IMG/VR virus record: IMGVR_UViG_3300035670_000735
Coordinates: 1-35,520 of that record
Direction: 5' to 3' (one strand)
DNA: 35,520 nt
Source: a virus
Made by a program: the position numbers and the translations under genes. Of this stretch, positions 1 to 35,432 are shown piece after piece (position 1 is the first letter of the stretch; the number at the start of each line of letters is the position of its first letter). Under the pieces are notes generated by a model. It searched no databases and was not told where the DNA came from. It worked only from the letters and a program-made list of their open reading frames with translations.

Positions 1-559
1 GTTTAAGTTCATCCACACTCGGCTCATCACCCTCTCCAATATAAAAATAATCTTTGATGGTGACGAGAGAATCGGTTTTATACTTGCACCGCGAATTACT
101 TGCCGTATAAGGAAACTGCGATTCGTCTGGAAGCCCGTACTTTTTCACGTAACTCCAAACATCATCAAACCACCCGCCGTTACATCCGTAGTTGTTGGAG
201 CACGACACAAGTTCCTGAGGAGATAATACAAGCCGAGAAAAAAAAGGACTTTTAATTATAAGTAAATCCTCAAGCTGTGATGTAGTTCCAAAACTATAAC
301 ACGAGCCGCATTTTCCCTGTGCCTTAACTGCACCAAGCCCTCCAGGAGTAACTGCGCGCCAGTCAAAGCTTTCAGGAAGCTGCGATAAAATAGGAACAGA
401 CGTCCTTCTCATCTCAGCTAGGTCTTTCTTTTTTAACCCAGTCTCACGAGGAAATGTGAAGTCCTTTTTAAAAAAAGTAGCAGTGCTGCTAAGAGCAACT
501 TGTGAGGCAGTTAAAAGAGAAAATAAAAAACAAAAACTAATTAGTCTTGCACTCAACAT
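1..559 (-). CDS. Papain-like (C1A) secreted cysteine protease, copy A, truncated by window edge
   Basis: The reading frame opens at the ATG at 557-559 and runs off the left edge after about 186 residues, so the C-terminal third is not visible. It starts with a hydrophobic signal peptide (MLSARLISFCFLFSLL) and then a short pro-region. The papain signature follows, here QGKCGSCYSF, with the catalytic Cys as the second Cys and the oxyanion Gln first; then comes the disulfide/CNGGW motif. The catalytic His and Asn lie beyond the edge. The start overlaps the end of the upstream collagen-like lipoprotein gene by 23 nt, which suggests translational coupling. It is a diverged copy of the complete gene at 34599-35432. 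The family hydrolyses peptide bonds; with a signal peptide the enzyme would act in the periplasm or outside the cell. The substrate is unknown. Confidence 0.85.
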   Translation of the reverse strand, partial: MLSARLISFCFLFSLLTASQVALSSTATFFKKDFTFPRETGLKKKDLAEMRRTSVPILSQLPESFDWRAVTPGGLGAVKAQGKCGSCYSFGTTSQLEDLLIIKSPFFSRLVLSPQELVSCSNNYGCNGGWFDDVWSYVKKYGLPDESQFPYTASNSRCKYKTDSLVTIKDYFYIGEGDEPSVDELK

Positions 560-1000: not shown

Positions 1001-1285
1001 TTAACTGGCTAAGGCCTGTATGATCTTTGCCGAAACCTCAACATAACGAGACAACACAGCTTTAATCTCAACAGCATCTAAATCAAAAACCTCTTCACTT
1101 AACTCTTCTGCGTTTGCGATAGCTTCGCTTGTCGCCTTGTAAACGTCCATAGCACTCGACCAAACTGCCGGACGCAGAACGTCTCCAATCGAGATCTTGC
1201 CGTCGTCACTTTTTGTCGTCTCGATTAAGTTTGCAACTTCGTCTAAAGCATCTGCAATGGATAAAATTTCATTTATACCAGACAT
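1001..1285 (-). CDS. Hypothetical 94-aa helical protein
   Basis: I do not recognise a family. The protein looks fully alpha-helical, is acidic and has no membrane segment or cysteines. AGGGAGG lies just upstream of the ATG. It ends 14 nt before the collagen-like lipoprotein start and is transcribed in the same direction, so it is probably the first gene of that short leftward operon. The 101 bp to its right separate it from a divergent gene set and must hold the promoters for both directions. Confidence 0.7.
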   Translation of the reverse strand: MSGINEILSIADALDEVANLIETTKSDDGKISIGDVLRPAVWSSAMDVYKATSEAIANAEELSEEVFDLDAVEIKAVLSRYVEVSAKIIQALAS

Positions 1286-1386: not shown

Positions 1387-1602
1387 ATGCAAGTAACTCT
1401 TACGTTCTCTCTTCCAGATGAATCAGAGGCGTTAAAATCAGCCCAAAACGGAGCGTCGTACAAAAAAGCACTTTTGTCTTTTTTAAAAAAACTTAAGAAA
1501 ATTAGAGAAGATCGAATACTTACAGACGAGACCTCTACACTTTTTTCAAAAATAGAATATGACTTTATAACAGCTACAAAAGAATTAGATATCGTCGACT
1601 AA
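1387..1602 (+). CDS. Hypothetical 71-aa protein
   Basis: This is a small, lysine-rich, probably helical protein without recognisable motifs. AGGAG stands 5 nt before the ATG. It is the first of four closely packed rightward genes (1387-2340) that run toward the endolysin gene. The opposite-strand neighbour at 1001-1285 shares the intergenic region. I cannot assign a function. Confidence 0.65.
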   Translation: MQVTLTFSLPDESEALKSAQNGASYKKALLSFLKKLKKIREDRILTDETSTLFSKIEYDFITATKELDIVD

Positions 1603-1668
1603 ATTATAATTTAGGCGTATAATTCAACTAGCCCAAATACCAATTTGACGCATAGGAGTAACCGCACC

Positions 1669-1881
1669 ATGAAGTTTAATTGGCTTATCTATCGAGACTG
1701 CGACTCACTTCGGCTTAGAAAAGTTGTTGTCGAGCTTTATGAAAGTGGAACACTTGTCCACAAAACACGTCTTTTCTACCCATTTTTTGCTCCGTCTTTA
1801 TTTCCAAATATTCTTAGAAAAAGAAAAAAATGGATGCTTAAAGTGGCTAAACAAATGGTCTCGGCTGAGTCGGTCAAATGA
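1669..1881 (+). CDS. Hypothetical 70-aa basic protein
   Basis: I chose the ATG at 1669 because AGGAG sits 9 nt upstream; a longer frame from a TTG at 1645 would run across that Shine-Dalgarno. The protein is very basic in its C-terminal half (RKRKKW, KVAKQ). The N-terminal half reads like a short beta sheet. No family is recognised. Its stop overlaps the next start as ATGA (1878-1881), so the 33-aa membrane peptide downstream is probably translationally coupled to it. Confidence 0.65.
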   Translation: MKFNWLIYRDCDSLRLRKVVVELYESGTLVHKTRLFYPFFAPSLFPNILRKRKKWMLKVAKQMVSAESVK

Positions 1882-1979
1882 GTATCTACTATTTTTTAGC
1901 TGGGTTTATTTGCGGAATATCCGTTACTGTAGCCGTTGCACTTATATTTTTGCTTATTGATATAAACATAGAAAGTTAA
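1878..1979 (+). CDS. 33-aa single-span membrane peptide
   Basis: The frame starts at the ATG that overlaps the previous stop and encodes 33 residues. Almost the whole peptide is one hydrophobic segment (FLAGFICGISVTVAVALIFL) with a short polar tail (DINIES). It ends one base before the next ATG at 1981. Overlap on one side and near-contact on the other argue that it is a real gene. Beside an endolysin gene, a holin, antiholin or other lysis accessory is possible, but the sequence alone does not prove this. Confidence 0.55.
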   Translation: MSIYYFLAGFICGISVTVAVALIFLLIDINIES

Positions 1980-1980
1980 T

Positions 1981-2340
1981 ATGACTACAGCAATAATAAT
2001 CTTAGTCGTTATCGTCGCTGGGATTTGGGGAATAGCTCGCATTTTAAAAAATTGGTATGCAAAAGACATTGCCGAAAATAAAACAAAACGCTTTAGCGAA
2101 TGGCTGGCCTTCAGAATCGCACGCTGGCGTCGAAAACAACCAGAACCAATACCAAACAACCCGGTAGATCCAACGAAGCCTGTAGAGCCTATTAAGCCGT
2201 CTAAGCCGATCTGGACTCGTCGGCTCCTGCGGTGGGATGTACAATGCCCGTGCGGAGCTATGTTTTCTTGCCGGAGAGCCGTAAATTCTACTGTTTGCCC
2301 TGAGTGTGGATCTGTTATAACTAGAGATGATGTTGTTTAA
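1981..2340 (+). CDS. Membrane-anchored protein with Pro-rich linker and zinc ribbon
   Basis: The 119-residue protein has an N-terminal transmembrane segment (residues about 3-22), a basic stretch and a proline/lysine repeat (PVDPTKPVEPIKPSKP). A C-terminal domain carries two CxC/CxxC pairs (CPCG and CPECG) that resemble a zinc ribbon. The N-terminal anchor with an extended Pro-rich linker recalls spanin-like architecture, but the zinc-ribbon end does not fit a spanin. It converges with the endolysin gene and overlaps it by 4 nt at the 3' ends. The function is unknown. Confidence 0.65.
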   Translation: MTTAIIILVVIVAGIWGIARILKNWYAKDIAENKTKRFSEWLAFRIARWRRKQPEPIPNNPVDPTKPVEPIKPSKPIWTRRLLRWDVQCPCGAMFSCRRAVNSTVCPECGSVITRDDVV

Positions 2341-2702
2341 TACGTAACATAAAACACACGAGGACCAGTACGGACATCCAAATGAATAAATGTGTTGTCA
2401 ACGTGTATTCCTCGAAATCCAAGAGCGATGGCTTTAGCGACAATCGCGTAACGGTCGAACGAATCACGACAAGCAATATCAACTGCTCGCCCGAGACAAT
2501 GTTGGCTATTCTTAGATGCTTTTTTGATGCTGGAATTGTACGCTTTGCATCGATAACCAGAGTTGACGACTATCGGAGCGTTGAAGTAAGTTCTTAAGTC
2601 CTGAAGCTTCTCAAGTAGTTCTGGGACAATGTTATAAACACCACAGCACGGACACCAAAGCTCGTCTTTATAAAAGTTTATTGACGCCTTTTCACGAGTC
2701 AT
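2337..2702 (-). CDS. Peptidase M15 family endolysin (VanY/D,D- or L-Ala-D-Glu-type)
   Basis: This 121-residue protein has the zinc site of the M15 peptidases: SQHCLGRAVD (His68 and Asp75) and, near the end, FIHLDV with His107 as third ligand. The central YRC and N-terminal CPCC resemble the Peptidase_M15_3 type that many phages use to cleave the peptide cross-links of murein. The length is typical of single-domain phage enzymes; there is no signal peptide or cell-wall-binding domain, so release to the periplasm would need a holin. AAGGG precedes the ATG. The neighbours are small membrane proteins, as expected in a lysis region. Confidence 0.85.
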   Translation of the reverse strand: MTREKASINFYKDELWCPCCGVYNIVPELLEKLQDLRTYFNAPIVVNSGYRCKAYNSSIKKASKNSQHCLGRAVDIACRDSFDRYAIVAKAIALGFRGIHVDNTFIHLDVRTGPRVFYVTY

Positions 2703-2807: not shown

Positions 2808-3227
2808 TTAGCACTTGTGCGTGTCTTTTTGAACACACTTTAGCTCTTTTATTTTTTCTTGCAATATACAAATTGAGTCGAATGACTCGTTGATTTTTCT
2901 AAGTATGTTTTCTTGCGAGTTTTCAACGATATGTACAGACTTTTCTAACATCTTAATGTTTCTTGCTGCAACAAGGGCTGTTGCAAGCTCTTTTTTAAAA
3001 TGATCAAACTGTCTGCGCAAAACCTCTACACTCTGAGACATGTGCATTATGTTTTTAACGTCTCCCTCAAGCTTTATAAACTTATGGTCAAAGCTTTCAA
3101 CCGATATAGAGACGTTATCTAATTGCTTTATTAACCGTTTAAAAAAGTAACAAATCCCACCAAATAAAACAGCAATTATGCTTATTGAGACGTGATTTAT
3201 TACTACCTGTAAGTTGTCAAGATTCAT
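2808..3227 (-). CDS. Membrane-anchored coiled-coil protein, possible holin or lysis accessory
   Basis: The 139-residue protein has one N-terminal transmembrane segment (about residues 12-31, SISIIAVLFGGICYF) and a long heptad-rich coiled coil (about 40-130). GGAG lies 7-8 nt before the ATG. It lies directly upstream of the endolysin on the same strand. The layout recalls small anchored phage proteins annotated as holin-like or lysis accessory, but no family motif is visible. It could equally be a virion or membrane-remodelling protein. Confidence 0.6.
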   Translation of the reverse strand: MNLDNLQVVINHVSISIIAVLFGGICYFFKRLIKQLDNVSISVESFDHKFIKLEGDVKNIMHMSQSVEVLRRQFDHFKKELATALVAARNIKMLEKSVHIVENSQENILRKINESFDSICILQEKIKELKCVQKDTHKC

Positions 3228-12818: not shown

Positions 12819-13202
12819 TTATCCTAAAATAAGTATTCCAACAGAACCCGTCTTCCCTAAACCGCCACTAAAACTTATCGTTACGCCAACCTCTTTACTC
12901 GTTGTCTGACGAGCGTGCCATCCAACTATAGAAAGGCTTGAATCGTCTTTATTTGGAGGCTTAATGATTATTATACCAGAATACGTTGGCATTTTCGTCG
13001 ACACTCTTAGCTCTACCCCATGAACAAAGTCTAATTCTTTGTATTCTGTATAAAAATTGTCATAAAACGTTAGTCTTCCACGTAAAGCTCCAATAACCGT
13101 GTCTAAAAACCCATTGAGAGTAGATATAATTGGATCAAACCAATCTGGAGCTCCAGGAAGGTCTGATTTAAGAATCTTACTCACTCCCTTGATTATTGCC
13201 AT
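12819..13202 (-). CDS. Small virion-associated protein, 127 aa
   Basis: An amphipathic N-terminal region (PDWFDPIISTLNGFLDTVIGAL) is followed by a beta-rich domain ending in glycine-rich strands. It lies directly after the large nozzle-like gene, touching it by one nucleotide, and 4 nt before the first internal-virion gene. It could be a tail knob or needle component. No family is recognised with confidence. Confidence 0.55.
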   Translation of the reverse strand: MAIIKGVSKILKSDLPGAPDWFDPIISTLNGFLDTVIGALRGRLTFYDNFYTEYKELDFVHGVELRVSTKMPTYSGIIIIKPPNKDDSSLSIVGWHARQTTSKEVGVTISFSGGLGKTGSVGILILG

Positions 13203-16171
13203 TACGTATCAAGCCTCGTATCTACTGGATCAACAAGAACAGAAAACCCACATAAAGCAAGCTGCTCTCGAGGACGCTCGTGAACAACTTCAAGATCAAG
13301 ATATGTAAACCGCGTGTGCTCTTCTGGTAAGTACGTAGCCATCCTGTCGGTAGAAGATGGCGTTCCCCACTGGCCTAAGCCCCATTTAAATTTACCCCAA
13401 AGTGTTGTCGAATCAAACAAATGAGTATCAATAGAGATCCTATCAAGATCTGTGGCCGTTCTTAAAATAAGATCTCCGACGTCTGTTTCGTCGTTATCGA
13501 AGAAAAGAACAATCTTACTTCCCTGCTTCTCGTATTCCGGCATCCCACAATGAAGACTCTGATATTTTAACGTAGATACTATACCTGGGGTTATTGTAAT
13601 TGCCCCAACAACTAAGTTAGCTACTGTATTAACCTCATACGTAGCACTATTGATCGTATCTAATATCCGCGCTGTCGCCGCCCCTTGAGTTATTAAAGAG
13701 CCGTCTGGGATAACAAGGTTGCTGCTAACAACAATCTGATTTGTTGCAGAGTCAATTGAGGTAATGTTTACAGAGATTGAAGGACTTGCAAAGTCTGTTG
13801 TAGAAAAACTTTTGCGCTCTTTATAAACATACGGACCGCTTGTAGCTGCCGTATAAAGATATCCATTAATAACTCGACCTAGGTTTATGTATCTATCATT
13901 CGTATAAACACCGTGCTCTCTTTGAGTCCAGGCGTTTGTAAAGGTGTTGTACACAAGTACGCGGTCGTTTGATGTTGAAGATAAATTCGTGTGCGTTGCT
14001 ATAAAATATGATTTTTCTTCCTCGTAAAACCAACCGTATCCATCCGTTTCAAAGTTAGTTGAAGCTGAGGCTATAAGATCTTTAAACTCATTATCTCGTC
14101 CTACAACTTCAACACCAATATCACTAATCTTAACGAATCCAAGGGAGCTCATCATGAATATTGCATTCTGTCCCTTTGCTATGCTGTTTTTTTGAAGACA
14201 TTCAACCGTACCGTCAAATTCGTCGATAACAAACGAGCTTGCAGTTTCCCCAGTAAGACGAAAGATCCCGTCTTTTTTCTTAATTATAAACAAAGAATCC
14301 TTAAGCCCAACAACGGCTAAAATTGGATCGTCAGCTGAACCCACCTTTTGAATGTTGATCAAAGGAACATGTTCTGGTTCACCAGGTTTAGACCACATAA
14401 CAGCATTTGCGAAGTTATCGTTTACACTCTTATAATCTTTAGGTCTAACCAAACCACCGCTAATCCATGCATGAACATATGTTGACCCGGTTAGTGTAAA
14501 GCTTGTCGCGTCTACAACTACAACCGACCACGTTCCATTCGCTTCCGTAGTACCAGTCACATCACTTATTAAGACATTGTCTCCTGTGGATAACCCGTGC
14601 GCTAATGATGTTGTTATTTTTATAAGACCACCACTACTTGATGTCCCAGAAACAGATGAACTAAATGGGATAGGAGACGTGTAAAGAGCCTTGTCTTCTA
14701 CTCGTCCTACGTTTAAATAAAATTCACTATCTCCAATGTTCTGCGATGTTATAAGCATTTTTCCAACAACATCATCATATCCAGATATATAATATCCAAT
14801 CCAGCCGGGATTCCCCGTGCAAAGATTAATAGTTCTAATAATTGACCGAGCAGTCAAATCAACATCTACGCCAACAGAGCCTGTATTCGAAATTATAAAC
14901 CTTGGCGTTGATCCGACGTCTTCGTAAAAATCAACGGTTCCAGCCGTGGCCGTATATCCGGCTGACCATGCCTCGCCAAAGGTGAATTTATCATTTGCTG
15001 TTTTTGTTATCTCGAAAATCTTCTCATTAACTAATTCAGGAAAACCTCCAGCACCAGTCACATCAAGAAACCTAACATAGTCTCCAGTAGCAAGGCCGTG
15101 TGCTGCGGTTGTTTGAATCTCAGCTAACCCAGCAGCATCTGCTACTAAAGACACGGTTGAGTCTACAACATCTGCTGCACATCCAAGAGTAAGTGTTGAC
15201 GTGCCGTTACTAATCGTTAGTGTTGATGTCCCGGCTAATAAATCGTCAGAGTTTATTAAATTGAAATAAAGCCTCTGTATACTCTCTGTATTCGCGAAAA
15301 ATGTGAAAGTCTTATATTTTGTAATCGACGATGCCTTTGGAGGACGTGTGTTTGCGTTCTCTATCCCCTCTTGAGTAGGGTTCGTATAAAGCTCTAACCC
15401 ACGAAACCCTTCCGGAGACGCATCGGTAACAACCATATAGCCTTGAGCGATCTCAGCGGATGTCGGCTTTGCTTGATATACTAATTGGAAATCTTCCGGA
15501 GGAATTGATCCACTTGCTACTATCGAAGTTCTGTAAATTTCAAGATAATGACTTGTCGTAACATCGTCTGGAAGGCTAACGCGAAGGCTGACCTGCTTTG
15601 TTCCGCCACTCGTGTTCTCAATATCTTGACGCTCACTCGGAGCTCCGAACATCTTATTTCCGTTTATATCATACGTAGAATATAAACACCGATACGCCAC
15701 AATCTTATTATTATCAAACCACGTTCCAGTAACAAGCCGAAGATCGAAATCCTCACCCTGTGGCATACCTGCCGATGTTAAGGATCCTGTTAGTGAATCA
15801 AGCTTCTTCACGCCATCAAAAGTAGTTATATAAAGATTGCCGTTTTGCTCGACAAACTTAATTTTATAACCACTTTCAGGATCTGATATTGAACTAGACT
15901 TTAGCGAGAACGTCCCGGTCCCGTTAGAATCATAATAAAGAGAATTATTATCAAGATGAATGAATAGTCTATTTTTATACTCCAAAAACTGTTTAATTGT
16001 TTGGTTTGGAATGCCAGATCCGTAAGAATCTCTTCCCCTAGGCTTTCTATAAATACCGTCTCTTACGCACTCAAAATTCTTTCCAACACGCAATGTAGAT
16101 GGATTAAGAGTAAGTGGGTTTCCGTGCGTAGAAACGCCAAGCTTCTCGTGCAGGACTCTATATTCAGCCAT
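13202..16171 (-). CDS. Large tail protein, nozzle/gp12-like
   Basis: The 989-residue protein is beta-rich. It has an N-terminal GKNFECVRDGIYRKPRG segment and repeated TTAAHGLATGDYVRF / TTSLAHGLSTGDNVLI units (found twice, about residues 355 and 520) that look like small beta inserts. A propeller-like part contains FTNAWTQREHG. Phage tail nozzle proteins of podoviruses (T7 gp12 type) have this size, fold pattern and location just after the adaptor gene. It would form the distal tail tube that contacts the envelope. The family assignment is by context and general pattern. Confidence 0.65.
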   Translation of the reverse strand: MAEYRVLHEKLGVSTHGNPLTLNPSTLRVGKNFECVRDGIYRKPRGRDSYGSGIPNQTIKQFLEYKNRLFIHLDNNSLYYDSNGTGTFSLKSSSISDPESGYKIKFVEQNGNLYITTFDGVKKLDSLTGSLTSAGMPQGEDFDLRLVTGTWFDNNKIVAYRCLYSTYDINGNKMFGAPSERQDIENTSGGTKQVSLRVSLPDDVTTSHYLEIYRTSIVASGSIPPEDFQLVYQAKPTSAEIAQGYMVVTDASPEGFRGLELYTNPTQEGIENANTRPPKASSITKYKTFTFFANTESIQRLYFNLINSDDLLAGTSTLTISNGTSTLTLGCAADVVDSTVSLVADAAGLAEIQTTAAHGLATGDYVRFLDVTGAGGFPELVNEKIFEITKTANDKFTFGEAWSAGYTATAGTVDFYEDVGSTPRFIISNTGSVGVDVDLTARSIIRTINLCTGNPGWIGYYISGYDDVVGKMLITSQNIGDSEFYLNVGRVEDKALYTSPIPFSSSVSGTSSSGGLIKITTSLAHGLSTGDNVLISDVTGTTEANGTWSVVVVDATSFTLTGSTYVHAWISGGLVRPKDYKSVNDNFANAVMWSKPGEPEHVPLINIQKVGSADDPILAVVGLKDSLFIIKKKDGIFRLTGETASSFVIDEFDGTVECLQKNSIAKGQNAIFMMSSLGFVKISDIGVEVVGRDNEFKDLIASASTNFETDGYGWFYEEEKSYFIATHTNLSSTSNDRVLVYNTFTNAWTQREHGVYTNDRYINLGRVINGYLYTAATSGPYVYKERKSFSTTDFASPSISVNITSIDSATNQIVVSSNLVIPDGSLITQGAATARILDTINSATYEVNTVANLVVGAITITPGIVSTLKYQSLHCGMPEYEKQGSKIVLFFDNDETDVGDLILRTATDLDRISIDTHLFDSTTLWGKFKWGLGQWGTPSSTDRMATYLPEEHTRFTYLDLEVVHERPREQLALCGFSVLVDPVDTRLDT

Positions 16172-19759: not shown

Positions 19760-21013
19760 TTAGGCTGCGTTAACAATGTCCGTAATTACGAGCGTCTGGT
19801 TAATCTTTGTAGAGAAAACAGCCAAGTTTGCATACAACCGAGTTTCAACACCGGCGTTTGCATCCATCGGTTTAAGATAAACTTTAGCGCCGTCGCTAAC
19901 CATTCCAGGAAGTTCGAACGTAGGAACTGTTTGAGCTCCAACTAATTCGAAAGCCTTCGAAGCGGTTGGGTGAACGAAAGCAATACCTTCTTTCATCATG
20001 CGGTGAGCAAACACGTTAACTTTTCCTGCTGGGCAGTAGAAGCTAAGTTTTTCAGAACCGTTTGCTGCTTCGCTTGATTTGTAAGAGCTGTCTTGCTGAC
20101 GTAAAGCCGCCATGTCGTTCCCGAGGTCTGCCCAAGTTGTCGTAGAAACAACAACATCAAGCTCTGGGATAATGCCCATACCGCGGTTTGCGCCCTTAGC
20201 AATAGCTTTCATGATCTTGTTGAAAGACAAAGGAGCAGATCCTGCCGAATACGTACCAGCGCCACGCCATAGGCCGTAAGAAGCTTTATCGATTCCCCAA
20301 AGAGTTCCAGTTGTGGAGCTCATTGCTGAATAAAGACCAGTCATGCAGTTTGCGCCGCTAAGGCCGTCTGCAGCAAAGAAGATAACGTTAGTTCCAGCAA
20401 CGCCTGGGTCTGCATCAATCGTGAACTTTTTGGATTCGATGTCGTATCCAGTAACAACTGCGGTACCTACGTTAACGCCACCGGCTGTCTGAAACTTAAC
20501 AACGCGGTTTTCGCTACCAAGCCAAAGACGTGATGCGAATGATGCGTCTGTAACAGTTACTTCAAGACCGTTAATAGCAGAAACAACGCCAATACCAGTT
20601 TTTCCGTACATAATGTCGGCTTCAATGTAGAAATACATGCTTGTTAACATGTTTTCAATCACACCCTTTGAAGCTTGAATGAAAGCGTTTTTAGATTCAG
20701 AACGGAAGATTGTTTCATAATCTAAAGCGTCGCGTAGTAAGAACTGAGAGCCTTCAGCTTCGCTCTGACGAGAAGCCATAGAGATAACTGAATTTAAAGA
20801 GAATGCCCCTGCGTTTGCAGCAGCTTTCGTGATCCCTTGTGAAGAAGTAACGTTAACGGCAGCTTTATAGCTTCCGCCAGTTTTCCCACTTGCAGGGACT
20901 GGAGTACATTCTTTGCAATAGTAAACGTCTGAAGGAATAAGATCGACAATCTTATCCGCATAGGCGGTTTTAAACCAGCCTTGTACTTGAGTCATGTTCG
21001 TATGGTCAGCCAT
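19760..21013 (-). CDS. Major capsid protein
   Basis: The 417-residue protein follows the scaffold gene, which is the usual place of the phage major capsid gene. Its N terminus (DHTNMTQVQGWFKTAY) and the region with SEAEGSQFLLRDALDYETIFRSESK are compatible with an HK97-type fold: N-arm, long helix, P-domain, and a central beta insertion (about 145-215). Copies of it would build the icosahedral shell. The assignment is based on context, size and composition, not on a recognised signature. GC-rich codon choice differs from the AT-rich fibre region. Confidence 0.8.
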   Translation of the reverse strand: MADHTNMTQVQGWFKTAYADKIVDLIPSDVYYCKECTPVPASGKTGGSYKAAVNVTSSQGITKAAANAGAFSLNSVISMASRQSEAEGSQFLLRDALDYETIFRSESKNAFIQASKGVIENMLTSMYFYIEADIMYGKTGIGVVSAINGLEVTVTDASFASRLWLGSENRVVKFQTAGGVNVGTAVVTGYDIESKKFTIDADPGVAGTNVIFFAADGLSGANCMTGLYSAMSSTTGTLWGIDKASYGLWRGAGTYSAGSAPLSFNKIMKAIAKGANRGMGIIPELDVVVSTTTWADLGNDMAALRQQDSSYKSSEAANGSEKLSFYCPAGKVNVFAHRMMKEGIAFVHPTASKAFELVGAQTVPTFELPGMVSDGAKVYLKPMDANAGVETRLYANLAVFSTKINQTLVITDIVNAA

Positions 21014-24145: not shown

Positions 24146-25543
24146 CTAGGAGCCCACAAGTCTTTTTAAATTCACTTGACTTTTTTTAAAAAGTTCTGGG
24201 CTTATGAAGTGATCTGACCGAGTGACACCACTTTGAATCACTGGATAAGGATTTTCGTGAAAGTCGGTATTGTCGACCATGTAAGCAAGAGCCATAAGTG
24301 CGTCCAAATGCCCCATCGTTTCAGTCCGTTCAAAATCAGTCCTTCGCTCGTTCCAGATACCGTATTTAAGCTGAATCCTTGTGTTTGGAAGTTCGTCCGG
24401 ATCCATTGCTATGCGGTTATTAGATATGGCGACACGAAGGCCGTTGAGAACAGACTCACGAAATCCAGTATTATTCATCTTGCTGCGTTTAACTATTGGT
24501 GAGACTGGGTATCCCTGGTCTTTGCTTAAGTCGTAAAGTTGCTGTGGGTCAGAGCTATCTCCGAGTCTTCTTATGTTTGTCTTTATTCCTAAAGACCGTT
24601 CTACTTCTTTGCAACTTTCTGCGAGTTCTCGTGTGGACATATAGTTTGCGAGGAATTCTTTAACGAGAATCAGTTTGGCCTGTTTAAAATCGACATAACC
24701 CCATATTGCTGCAAAGTAGTCTTTAAGCCCAAGATCACAGCACATGAACCAATTAAAGTATTCAGGACGTTGATGTATTGATACATACAACGACTCGTCC
24801 TGAGCTTCTGGGATAACCAGGCGGGAGCGGTTGGCTATTAGATCAAGTTTATATTCACGTTTATACGCGTCGGAATCAATTCCTCCAGATCTTCCTATAA
24901 TTTTTTGATGAAGATCTTCGGACACATCTCCAGATCTGATTGAATCGTCGATATCCCATCTAAACATATTCCCGCTAAGTTCTGCGGATGCTAGTTCTTG
25001 CAAATAATAGTGCGTTAGATCTTCTGGTGGCGTTGATGTAACAACCAGCTGGCCGTCGGTTGTGTCGAGCTGTGGCGAAAGTACCGATTTAAGAATATAT
25101 TCCGGTTTATATTTCCAAAATCCGAACTCATCGCATATGATTATATGTGATTCAGTTCCCCGAGCCTTATCTGCTTCTCCACTATCTTTGCAGCCGAATA
25201 TGTGCATGCGAGAGCCGTTTGGCCAGTGGTATTCACCCATGCGTAGTTGCGGTTTTTCACTTGGGGCATGTGAGTAAATGTGGTCAATTAATATTTGTAA
25301 AATATCATAAGCCTGTGCCTGCGTTGGTGCGCCGTAACGAATGATTATTGGGCGTTTTACTGCCTCTTCAAACGCGTATACAAGTACAGTTGTTCCTTTT
25401 CCAAACCTGCGGTGACAATTAGCAATAAGGCGTTTTTTTATACGTAGTAATTTATAAAGTTTATATTGAGACGCTCTAAGATACCAAGGAGCGATGACTG
25501 CGCACTTATAGAACGCTGCATAATCATTTTGAGTAAGATGCAC
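24146..25543 (-). CDS. Terminase large subunit
   Basis: The 465-residue protein has the packaging ATPase motifs: Walker A at 43-52 (CHRRFGKGTT), Walker B at 134-139 (IIICDE) and the coupling motif TSTPP (169-173). A C-terminal RNase-H-like nuclease has Asp270 (CCDLG), Asp329 (GDSSDP) and Asp414 (HLDAL). It starts with GTG one base after the small-terminase stop. It cuts concatemeric DNA and drives it into the prohead through the portal. All three nuclease acids are present, so it looks functional. Confidence 0.92.
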   Translation of the reverse strand: MHLTQNDYAAFYKCAVIAPWYLRASQYKLYKLLRIKKRLIANCHRRFGKGTTVLVYAFEEAVKRPIIIRYGAPTQAQAYDILQILIDHIYSHAPSEKPQLRMGEYHWPNGSRMHIFGCKDSGEADKARGTESHIIICDEFGFWKYKPEYILKSVLSPQLDTTDGQLVVTSTPPEDLTHYYLQELASAELSGNMFRWDIDDSIRSGDVSEDLHQKIIGRSGGIDSDAYKREYKLDLIANRSRLVIPEAQDESLYVSIHQRPEYFNWFMCCDLGLKDYFAAIWGYVDFKQAKLILVKEFLANYMSTRELAESCKEVERSLGIKTNIRRLGDSSDPQQLYDLSKDQGYPVSPIVKRSKMNNTGFRESVLNGLRVAISNNRIAMDPDELPNTRIQLKYGIWNERRTDFERTETMGHLDALMALAYMVDNTDFHENPYPVIQSGVTRSDHFISPELFKKSQVNLKRLVGS

Positions 25544-33338: not shown

Positions 33339-33523
33339 AGAATATAAGTATCGACTTTGATCCAAATACAATCGAACAAAAACTACTAGAATTAGCTCGT
33401 AAAGACCGCATCGTGATTATAAACTGTGACGACGCACACGAAACTGAATCATGGATAAATTCACACATAAAATTTGTTCGCGCACTCATTTTTGAAGGAA
33501 CACTTTTCGTCATTAAACTTTAA
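33335..33523 (+). CDS. Hypothetical 62-aa protein
   Basis: The ATG at 33335 overlaps the previous stop as ATGA; the frame could open further upstream at 33278 but that part runs antisense to nothing and lacks its own Shine-Dalgarno. The protein is mixed alpha/beta (NTIEQKLLELARKDRIVIIN, later FVRALIFEGTLFVIKL) with no known motif. It lies in the rightward early operon just before the nuclease gene. Confidence 0.5.
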   Translation: MKNISIDFDPNTIEQKLLELARKDRIVIINCDDAHETESWINSHIKFVRALIFEGTLFVIKL

Positions 33524-33539
33524 AGCAAGGAGTAGCTTT

Positions 33540-33863
33540 ATGGCGTGTAATTCAAGAGCAAAGGGAGCCCGAGGAGAACGGTTTATCGCAGCGTGGATTC
33601 GTGGCGTACTTGGATTCGATGCGCGACGCGGCCAGCAGTACTGCGGTGCAAATGGAGACGCCGATGTCGTCGGGATTCCTGGAATTCATATTGAATCTAA
33701 ATTCGTACAAGCGCTTAACATAGATCGCGCAATGGAACAATCCGTGAGAGAAGCAGGACGAGACGTCCCGACAGTCTGGCACAAAAAAAATCGCGGAGAG
33801 CTTATGATCACTATCCGCGCAAACGATCTTATTAGATTTGCGAAAGCTATTATACCTTCTTAG
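33540..33863 (+). CDS. PD-(D/E)XK nuclease, Holliday-junction resolvase-like
   Basis: I start at the ATG at 33540, behind AAGGAG, not at the longer frame from 33474. The 107-residue product has the nuclease core: Glu13 in ARGERF, RRGQQY followed by GDADVV (Asp42), then HIESK (Glu52, Lys54), and a later Gln/His region. The order E...D...ExK with the flanking Q matches archaeal-Hjc-like phage resolvases and other small PD-(D/E)XK enzymes. It would cut branched recombination intermediates, in line with the RecT recombinase on the other side of the operator. Confidence 0.75.
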   Translation: MACNSRAKGARGERFIAAWIRGVLGFDARRGQQYCGANGDADVVGIPGIHIESKFVQALNIDRAMEQSVREAGRDVPTVWHKKNRGELMITIRANDLIRFAKAIIPS

Positions 33864-34006: not shown

Positions 34007-34612
34007 ATGGAGAAAGAAAATTTAGTTGGTAAAAAAATAGGACGATTATCTGTTATAAGACAAGAATCGCGAGATAAATTTTTTAATAGAATGTTCCTAT
34101 GTATTTGCGACTGTGGTAATGAAAAAACGGTCTCATTTAGTCATTTAAACAGCCGGCATACCATGTCTTGCGGTTGCTTAAAAAAAGAACCGAGACCGAG
34201 AAAACACGGCATGTCATGTTCTCCAGAATACTATACTTGGAGTGGTATGAAGGCGCGATGTAAGCCTGATACGAAAAATTATAATTGTCAAATATATGTG
34301 GCTAAAGGAATAAAATTATGTGATAGGTGGAAAAAATTTGAAAACTTTCTAGAAGATATGGGAACCAGACCGACACCGCAACATACACTAGATAGAATTG
34401 ATAACGATGGTAATTATGAACCAGGAAACTGTAGATGGGCTACAAAATCAGAGCAGGCCATAAACAGAAAAGGAGCAATTAACATTATTTATAAAGAAAC
34501 AAATTTAAACTTAAAAGAGTGGTCTGTAAAACTAAAAATTTCGTATTCATGCTTATATGCTAGAATCAAAAAAAGAAAATGGTCCATAGAAAAGGCGTTT
34601 AATACAAAATAA
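34007..34612 (+). CDS. HNH endonuclease with zinc-ribbon N terminus and HTH C terminus
   Basis: The 201-residue protein has three parts. The N-terminal half is a Cys-rich zinc-binding domain (CICDCG, later SCGCLKK). The middle carries the phage HNH core: YTWSGMKARC, GIKLCDRWKKF, DMGTRP, HTLDRIDNDGNYEPGNCRWA. The end is a helix-turn-helix (about 159-201) of the type found alone at 33135-33338. Such enzymes act as free-standing homing endonucleases or in packaging. The gene is more AT-rich than its neighbours and lies at the end of the rightward operon, convergent with the protease gene (14-nt overlap), as for a mobile gene. Confidence 0.8.
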   Translation: MEKENLVGKKIGRLSVIRQESRDKFFNRMFLCICDCGNEKTVSFSHLNSRHTMSCGCLKKEPRPRKHGMSCSPEYYTWSGMKARCKPDTKNYNCQIYVAKGIKLCDRWKKFENFLEDMGTRPTPQHTLDRIDNDGNYEPGNCRWATKSEQAINRKGAINIIYKETNLNLKEWSVKLKISYSCLYARIKKRKWSIEKAFNTK

Positions 34613-35432
34613 CAGCCGTAGCATGTTCTCCGATTCTATTGCACTTGAGCCCATTTGAATCAAGCATTTTCATTCTAATAAAGCCGTCTTCACCGTATTC
34701 TGTTCCCCAGCTGTTTCGAACCACCCAAACGTCTTTCTCAAAAGCTACAAGCTCCACTAAATGGTTCACATCTCTTCCGCGCGAACACGTGTTAAGCACG
34801 CCACCACCGTAATTCATAAAATCACCGCCTGCATAAACCGATACAGCTAACGGTCCGTAAAGTATCAACGCACGTTTAAGTTCATCCACACTCGGCTCAT
34901 CACCCTCTCCAATATAAAAATAATCTTTGATGGTGACGAGAGAATCGGTTTTATACTTGCACCGCGAATTACTTGCCGTATAAGGAAACTGCGATTCGTC
35001 AGGAAGCCCAAACTTCTTAACATAATCCCAAACAGCATTAAACCAGCCTCCGTTACATCCATAGTTATCTGAGCACGAGACAATCTCTTGAGGAGCTAAT
35101 ACAAGACGAGAGAAAAAAGGGCTTTTAATAATCAGCAAATCCTCAAGCTGCGATGTCGTACCAAAGCTATAGCACGAACCACACGACCCCTGGTTCTTTA
35201 CCGCACTTAATCCGCCAGGTGTAACAGCGCGCCAGTCAAAACTTTCAGGAAGCTGCGGTAAAACCGGAACGGACGATTTTCTCATTTCAACAAGGTCTTT
35301 CTTTTTTAACCCAGTTTCACGAGGAAATGTAAAGTCTTTTTTAAAAAAAGTAACAGCTTCTCCAAAAGCTCTGTTAGATGAGATTAAAAGAGAAAATAAA
35401 AAACAAAAACTAATTAGTCTTGCACTCAACAT
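34599..35432 (-). CDS. Papain-like (C1A) secreted cysteine protease, copy B, complete
   Basis: The 277-residue protein has a signal peptide (residues 1 to about 24), a pro-region of only about 35 residues, and a mature papain fold starting at LPESFDWRAV. QGSCGSC places the catalytic Cys at 87 with oxyanion Gln81. Further motifs are CSDNYGCNGGW (120-130), NHLVELV with His224 and NSWG with Asn240, so the catalytic set is complete. The I29-type inhibitory propeptide of eukaryotic relatives is absent. It would be exported and cleave proteins in the periplasm or outside the cell; the target is unknown. Its start overlaps the collagen-like gene. Such an enzyme is unusual for a phage. Confidence 0.9.
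   Translation of the reverse strand: MLSARLISFCFLFSLLISSNRAFGEAVTFFKKDFTFPRETGLKKKDLVEMRKSSVPVLPQLPESFDWRAVTPGGLSAVKNQGSCGSCYSFGTTSQLEDLLIIKSPFFSRLVLAPQEIVSCSDNYGCNGGWFNAVWDYVKKFGLPDESQFPYTASNSRCKYKTDSLVTIKDYFYIGEGDEPSVDELKRALILYGPLAVSVYAGGDFMNYGGGVLNTCSRGRDVNHLVELVAFEKDVWVVRNSWGTEYGEDGFIRMKMLDSNGLKCNRIGEHATAVILY

Follow-up and report, generated by a model that had tools for sequence, protein, structure and literature searches.

The window (the whole 35,520-nucleotide stretch of the viral record that was analysed) encodes a papain-like peptidase of family C1A carrying a predicted export signal, and relatives of this gene recur in uncultivated phages, where they lie close to endolysin genes more often than expected by chance. 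We propose, with moderate confidence, that the peptidase is a late, envelope-directed accessory protease that works with the endolysin and aids lysis. This model draws on the combination of export, envelope anchoring in a subset of members, catalytic conservation and endolysin linkage. The peptidase gene and the phage markers first needed here are the following:

34599-35432, minus strand: C1A papain-like peptidase, complete gene, allele B (Pfam, PDB relatives, AlphaFold2, Foldseek, 40-homologue alignment)
34007-34612, plus strand: HNH endonuclease (phrog_374, E 1.8e-60)
33474-33863, plus strand: RusA-like resolvase (phrog_244)
24146-25543, minus strand: terminase large subunit, a tailed-phage marker (Pfam and PHROG matches)

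The peptidase gene starts with an ATG, has GGGGAG as ribosome-binding site and encodes 277 amino acids. PF00112 (Peptidase_C1) was matched over profile positions 1-207 of 220 with an E-value of 7.6e-51; the score of 173.7 bits against a cut-off of 20.7 means that the match is not due to chance. Gln81, Cys87, His224 and Asn240, which the first-pass annotation had named as residues of the complete copy, were all found in the order of the catalytic set; they line up with the catalytic residues of C1A enzymes whose structures have been solved and are invariant in an alignment of 40 phage homologues. The PDB relatives are cathepsin C, ficin and ervatamin. Structure prediction, proposed in the first-pass annotation as a check, recovered the papain fold: the AlphaFold2 model built from the 40 phage homologues has a mean pLDDT of 90.4, Foldseek aligned it to ervatamin-C (E 1.2e-21, TM 0.92 by target length), and comparison with C1A structures by VIA gave a Z of about 30. 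By sequence, residues and modelled fold the product is a member of peptidase family C1A, and proteolysis is its predicted activity. Peptidase_C1 was the sole family matched, Pfam giving no match to peptidoglycan hydrolases (NlpC/P60, CHAP, amidase, M15), and an identity as endolysin was rejected on this ground.

The predicted layout comprises a signal peptide (about residues 1-24), a short pro-region (about 25-60) and a mature domain from about residue 61. The signal peptide had been claimed before and is borne out by a hydrophobic N-terminus, which forms a helix at residues 4-18 in the model. Also as claimed, Pfam matched no I29 propeptide domain, the inhibitor domain of cathepsin L/papain-type zymogens, and the gap between signal peptide and mature domain is only about 36 residues; according to the ranges in the model, the stretch between about residues 33 and 60 aligns with the final portion of propeptides of solved structures. 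Compared with cathepsins C, L, K and S, ervatamin and ficin, the enzyme has the common fold, the Gln-Cys-His-Asn set and the CGSCY and NSWG motifs, but it is encoded by a tailed phage and has the pro-region of about 36 residues in place of the I29 propeptide.

The phage character of the surrounding DNA was then considered. The window, an IMG/VR virus record, carries a terminase large subunit, a P22-like portal, an M15 endolysin, RecT, RusA, an HNH endonuclease and a primase-like gene. The HNH gene is convergent with the peptidase gene and overlaps its 3' end by 14 bp, which places the peptidase gene inside the phage genome. A phage-encoded enzyme, as the first-pass annotation had it, thus agrees with the flanking HNH, RusA and late genes and with homologues that lie on contigs with a terminase; a host junction inside the contig, which would have spoken against it, was looked for and none was found. 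Rfam and tRNA scans gave no matches in the window, and a promoter scan gave sites no more numerous than in shuffled sequence. The product of 13202-16171 (minus strand) of the window is probably a structural protein; it matches the FCCH domain of ubiquitin-activating enzymes repeatedly (PF16190, E 1.6e-13).

Among annotated phages, only a Silvanigrella aquatica phage is related by both terminase and portal (25-27% identity). Structural genes are common to the window phage and the Silvanigrella phage CP017838, in which a profile search found no C1A gene. Silvanigrella aquatica is placed in the Bdellovibrionota/Oligoflexia, and this kinship is a weak hint, and the only one, to the host of the window phage. 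The nearest uncultivated relative (G035) has 65% identity in the terminase large subunit, 61% in the portal and 60% in the capsid-region gene at 19760-21013 of the window, and carries a tyrosine integrase. Its own C1A gene (42% identity) overlaps an M15 endolysin gene and is convergent with RusA, in a neighbourhood like that of the window. The next relative (G056, terminase 53%) has an NlpC/P60 endolysin and is without C1A, so the peptidase gene is accessory, not essential, in this phage group; a further related phage (G057) is also without C1A.

Relatives of the peptidase were sought by scanning IMG/VR DNA with degenerate forms of QGxCGxCY and QGxCGxCW and by requiring a C1A match above the Pfam cut-off. 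These degenerate motifs, together with terminase alignment, were needed to recover relatives: searches of viral contigs with peptides of the window protein, or with the terminase alone, gave no matches. Eleven matches to the Y motif and eleven to the W motif were dropped as spurious frames or short matches. Six further contigs were obtained with the first motif and 49 with the second, i.e. 55 contigs that encode about 46 distinct proteins at 85% identity; 36 of the 55 carry a terminase. It is therefore not the case that homologues are confined to cellular chromosomes, a finding that the first-pass annotation had named as one that would refute its reading. The contig L038 (5.8 kb, with an I29-like propeptide and without terminase) may be eukaryotic and is not counted as support.

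The enzyme had also been described as rare in tailed phages, which holds for isolate genomes and fails for uncultivated phages, as the 55 further contigs indicate. Among 50,697 annotated phage records C1A was essentially absent, the matches being a short one in a Lak phage and distant faecal fragments that carry no annotation; isolation bias can make a family look rare in isolate phage genomes. A scan of genome_contigs for C1A gave one distant match, in Omnitrophota, and no close bacterial homologue of the window peptidase. Phage C1A peptidases as such are already known, since BFVD lists Peptidase C1A proteins in uncultured Caudovirales and in Streptomyces phage Shady; a partial match to the window peptidase was also obtained with PHROG 16701 ("peptidase"). 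These belong to the same family and to phage genomes, but the identity to the BFVD proteins is about 15-21%, they have no assigned function, and we found no described link of the BFVD or PHROG 16701 proteins to lysis genes.

A simple hydropathy and lipobox scan detected an export signal (signal peptide or lipobox) in essentially all 5'-complete C1A members. Most have a plain SPI signal and not an anchor. A lipobox was found in about ten members and a hydrophobic C-terminal segment was scored in four; together these features concern about a quarter to a third of the family, and they point to retention in the envelope. Three homologues (L004:3767-4762, L026:4437-5387 and L063:4260-5612) combine an N-terminal signal peptide with a hydrophobic C-terminal segment resembling a membrane anchor. 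By inspection, some members have Ig-like C-terminal extensions.

We examined the position of the C1A genes relative to endolysin genes. In the window the relevant features, all on the minus strand, are:

2808-3227, minus strand: protein with an N-terminal membrane segment and a coiled coil, candidate lysis protein (weak Rz-like spanin match, phrog_739, E 0.0037)
2337-2702, minus strand: M15 peptidase endolysin (PF08291, E 2.4e-17; phrog_894 endolysin, E 5.7e-31)
1001-1285, minus strand: small helical protein, encoded by the first gene of the minus-strand unit whose last gene is the peptidase (homologue near the C1A gene of contig L048)
537-986, minus strand: lipoprotein with a collagen-like Gly-Pro-Gln repeat (open reading frame, and lipobox FSCG by inspection)

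The endolysin gene is on the same strand as the peptidase gene and 1.8 kb upstream of it. Across 50 contigs, linkage was evaluated with four endolysin-type Pfam models against random placement on a circle. The C1A gene was at most 2.5 kb from an endolysin gene in 17 of the 24 contigs with an endolysin, compared to 4.4 expected (P<5e-5), a figure to be read knowing that two of the four models were picked after the neighbours were seen and that the contigs are not phylogenetically independent. At a distance of at most 1 kb the count was 12 of 24 (2.2 expected), and after removal of four members of one clade it was 8 of 20 (1.6 expected, P 1e-4). Terminase served as a control and clustering was absent: 4 of 28 C1A genes were within 2.5 kb of it, for 5.3 expected. 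Thirteen of the 17 close C1A-endolysin pairs are co-directional, and an amidase gene lies directly upstream of the C1A gene in L023, L047, L064 and L079. In about half of the contigs no endolysin was recognised by the four Pfam models used, which counts against a lysis function. The C1A gene often ends a gene cluster, facing a convergent gene.

Two features of lysis proteins are thus found in the C1A family: genes linked to endolysin genes beyond chance, and products predicted to be exported or located in the membrane. According to the model that we favour, the C1A papain-like endopeptidase would be made late in infection and exported by the Sec pathway; it would reach the periplasm or the outer envelope, released from its short non-I29 pro-region, and there cut envelope proteins, for example peptidoglycan-linked lipoproteins, outer-membrane proteins or surface-layer proteins. 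This cleavage would help the endolysin to open the host envelope and progeny to be released. A lysis aid was one of the options raised in the first-pass annotation, and the endolysin linkage and the export signals argue for it, as does the nearest relative, whose C1A gene overlaps that of the endolysin and, like the one in the window, is oriented towards RusA. A mainly lysogenic role is made less probable by the tyrosine integrases, found in only 8 of 46 C1A-bearing contigs and not in the window. Against a lysis function stands the relative without C1A (G056), from which the enzyme appears dispensable in this phage group. Between the endolysin and the peptidase unit lies a block of small open reading frames on the opposite strand (1387-2340, plus strand), so a shared transcript is not required. 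Homologues of one frame of this block (1645-1881) lie in L074 and, in G035, upstream of the terminase gene.

Known phage lysis involves holins, peptidoglycan hydrolases and membrane-fusing spanins; with a dedicated exported protease, the degradation of proteins would join these steps. In the final phase of infection spanins (Rz/Rz1) and endolysins target the host envelope, and endolysin genes are the neighbours of C1A; however, spanins are non-enzymatic proteins that fuse membranes, the substrate of endolysins is peptidoglycan, and C1A enzymes cut proteins. A parallel exists in baculovirus V-CATH, fragments of which were matched in BFVD: it is a virus-encoded exported papain that contributes to the breakdown of the host as infection ends. 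The two have in common that they are exported papains encoded by viruses, but V-CATH belongs to an insect virus, liquefies animal tissue together with a chitinase and has an I29 propeptide, which the window enzyme lacks, and no close kinship is shown. More tentatively, and with considerable doubt on our part, the model may extend to many uncultivated phages, perhaps of Bdellovibrionota-like hosts, in which an exported or lipid-anchored papain would provide an extra protein-cutting lysis step beside the endolysin and possibly replace spanins. If true, the exported papain would represent a hitherto undescribed class of lysis protein. The lysis-linked grouping of phage C1A enzymes appears to be undescribed; the literature searched, of partial coverage, yielded no report that connects C1A papains with lysis by phages, which is weak evidence of novelty. 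Since the family recurs, has conserved catalytic residues and is tied to endolysin genes, the idea is testable in any culturable host.

The main rival, which we consider rather unlikely, is that the enzyme is extracellular cargo with no direct part in lysis, digesting outside proteins such as those of competitor phages or bacteria, pili, biofilm or surface layers, shed receptors or nutrients. Accessory cargo genes, too, are often located where late operons end, in the vicinity of lysis genes. A lysis function is therefore not proved by linkage alone, and the frequent placement of the C1A gene last in its cluster, opposite a convergent gene, fits cargo as well. The plain SPI signal of most members is in line with release, the Ig-like extensions could bind surfaces, and absence of the enzyme from G056, G057 and the Silvanigrella phage is what cargo would predict. 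However, the lipobox or hydrophobic C-terminal segment of the anchored subset would hold the enzyme in the envelope, and a cargo role does not require specific linkage to endolysins.

The two ends of the contig carry two versions of the peptidase gene:

1-647: self-overlap of the contig with 34874-35520 (spacing 34,873)
2-559, minus strand: second version of the peptidase gene, allele A, N-terminal 186 codons, cut by the contig start (sequence comparison)

The two segments are collinear and gapless, with 86.6% identity distributed as follows: the first 127 bp are identical, 87 mismatches fall in bases 128-591, and the last 56 bp are identical. When allele A is joined with 34599-34873 across a circle of 34,873 bp, a complete enzyme of 277 amino acids is obtained in frame. 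The first-pass annotation took the repeat at the other end as support for active selection. This does not stand: the repeat is best accounted for by self-overlap via a strain variant, and the comparison of the alleles (dS 0.58, dN 0.08, dN/dS 0.14) shows that they are under purifying and not positive selection, with a dN/dS of 0.36 in the signal peptide and pro-region and 0.05-0.08 in the mature part. Most simply, the terminal copies are two strain alleles on a 34,873-bp circle, with 520 bp of the second allele added. That one genome carries the peptidase-lipoprotein pair as a genuine tandem duplication, a question independent of the function of the enzyme, is improbable. Such a duplication would agree with purifying selection on both copies, and a graph with a repeated 127-mer would yield the same contig start. 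However, a single circle closes the peptidase gene in frame, and the second arm breaks off at 520 bp, as a minor variant would be expected to do. In addition, 127 is a common assembler word length; a contig that starts at a branch point of a k=127 assembly graph is expected to show identity over 127 bp there, and G056 likewise closes on itself with an exact terminal repeat of 127 bp.

The collagen-like lipoprotein gene lies upstream of the peptidase gene and overlaps it by 23 nt, and the two are probably co-translated. Tail-fibre PHROGs of collagen-like type match this lipoprotein in the repeat only. The overlap favours a role in host modification or superinfection exclusion, in which the protease and the lipoprotein would remodel the host surface during infection or lysogeny and remove receptors, and so does the integrase of the nearest relative. 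We regard this role as quite improbable given the scarcity of integrases among C1A-bearing contigs and their absence from the window, and because no homologue of the lipoprotein was found by tblastn in the C1A loci compared. Finally, it is very improbable that the peptidase gene is host DNA at a prophage edge or in a chimeric contig: C1A peptidases occur in many bacteria and the gene lies at a contig end, but the closed circle has phage genes on both sides (HNH and RusA; lipoprotein, endolysin and tail), the same genes flank a diverged C1A gene in G035, terminases accompany most of the other C1A contigs, and genome_contigs held no close bacterial homologue.

Other exported proteins were observed near the C1A genes. 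One of about 230-277 amino acids (cluster 1) is encoded within three genes of C1A in 10 of 47 contigs, for example at L029:724-1515, L028:433-1200, L026:3664-4356, L027:4236-5069, L034:4351-5166, L053:6096-6878, L055:3072-3827 and L060:1480-2175. It had no matches in Pfam, NCBIfam or phage records, is adjoined by a small holin-like membrane protein in L028, L029 and L034, and could be an unknown lysis partner. In four related contigs a second exported protein, bearing an HEIGH motif like that of zinc peptidases, directly follows C1A (L047:7180-8001, L046:1093-1899, L064:8359-9162 and L079:5641-6441). The HEIGH-motif protein of L047 is unrecognised by Pfam and NCBIfam; judging from the motif, the phages L047, L046, L064 and L079 may export two proteases.
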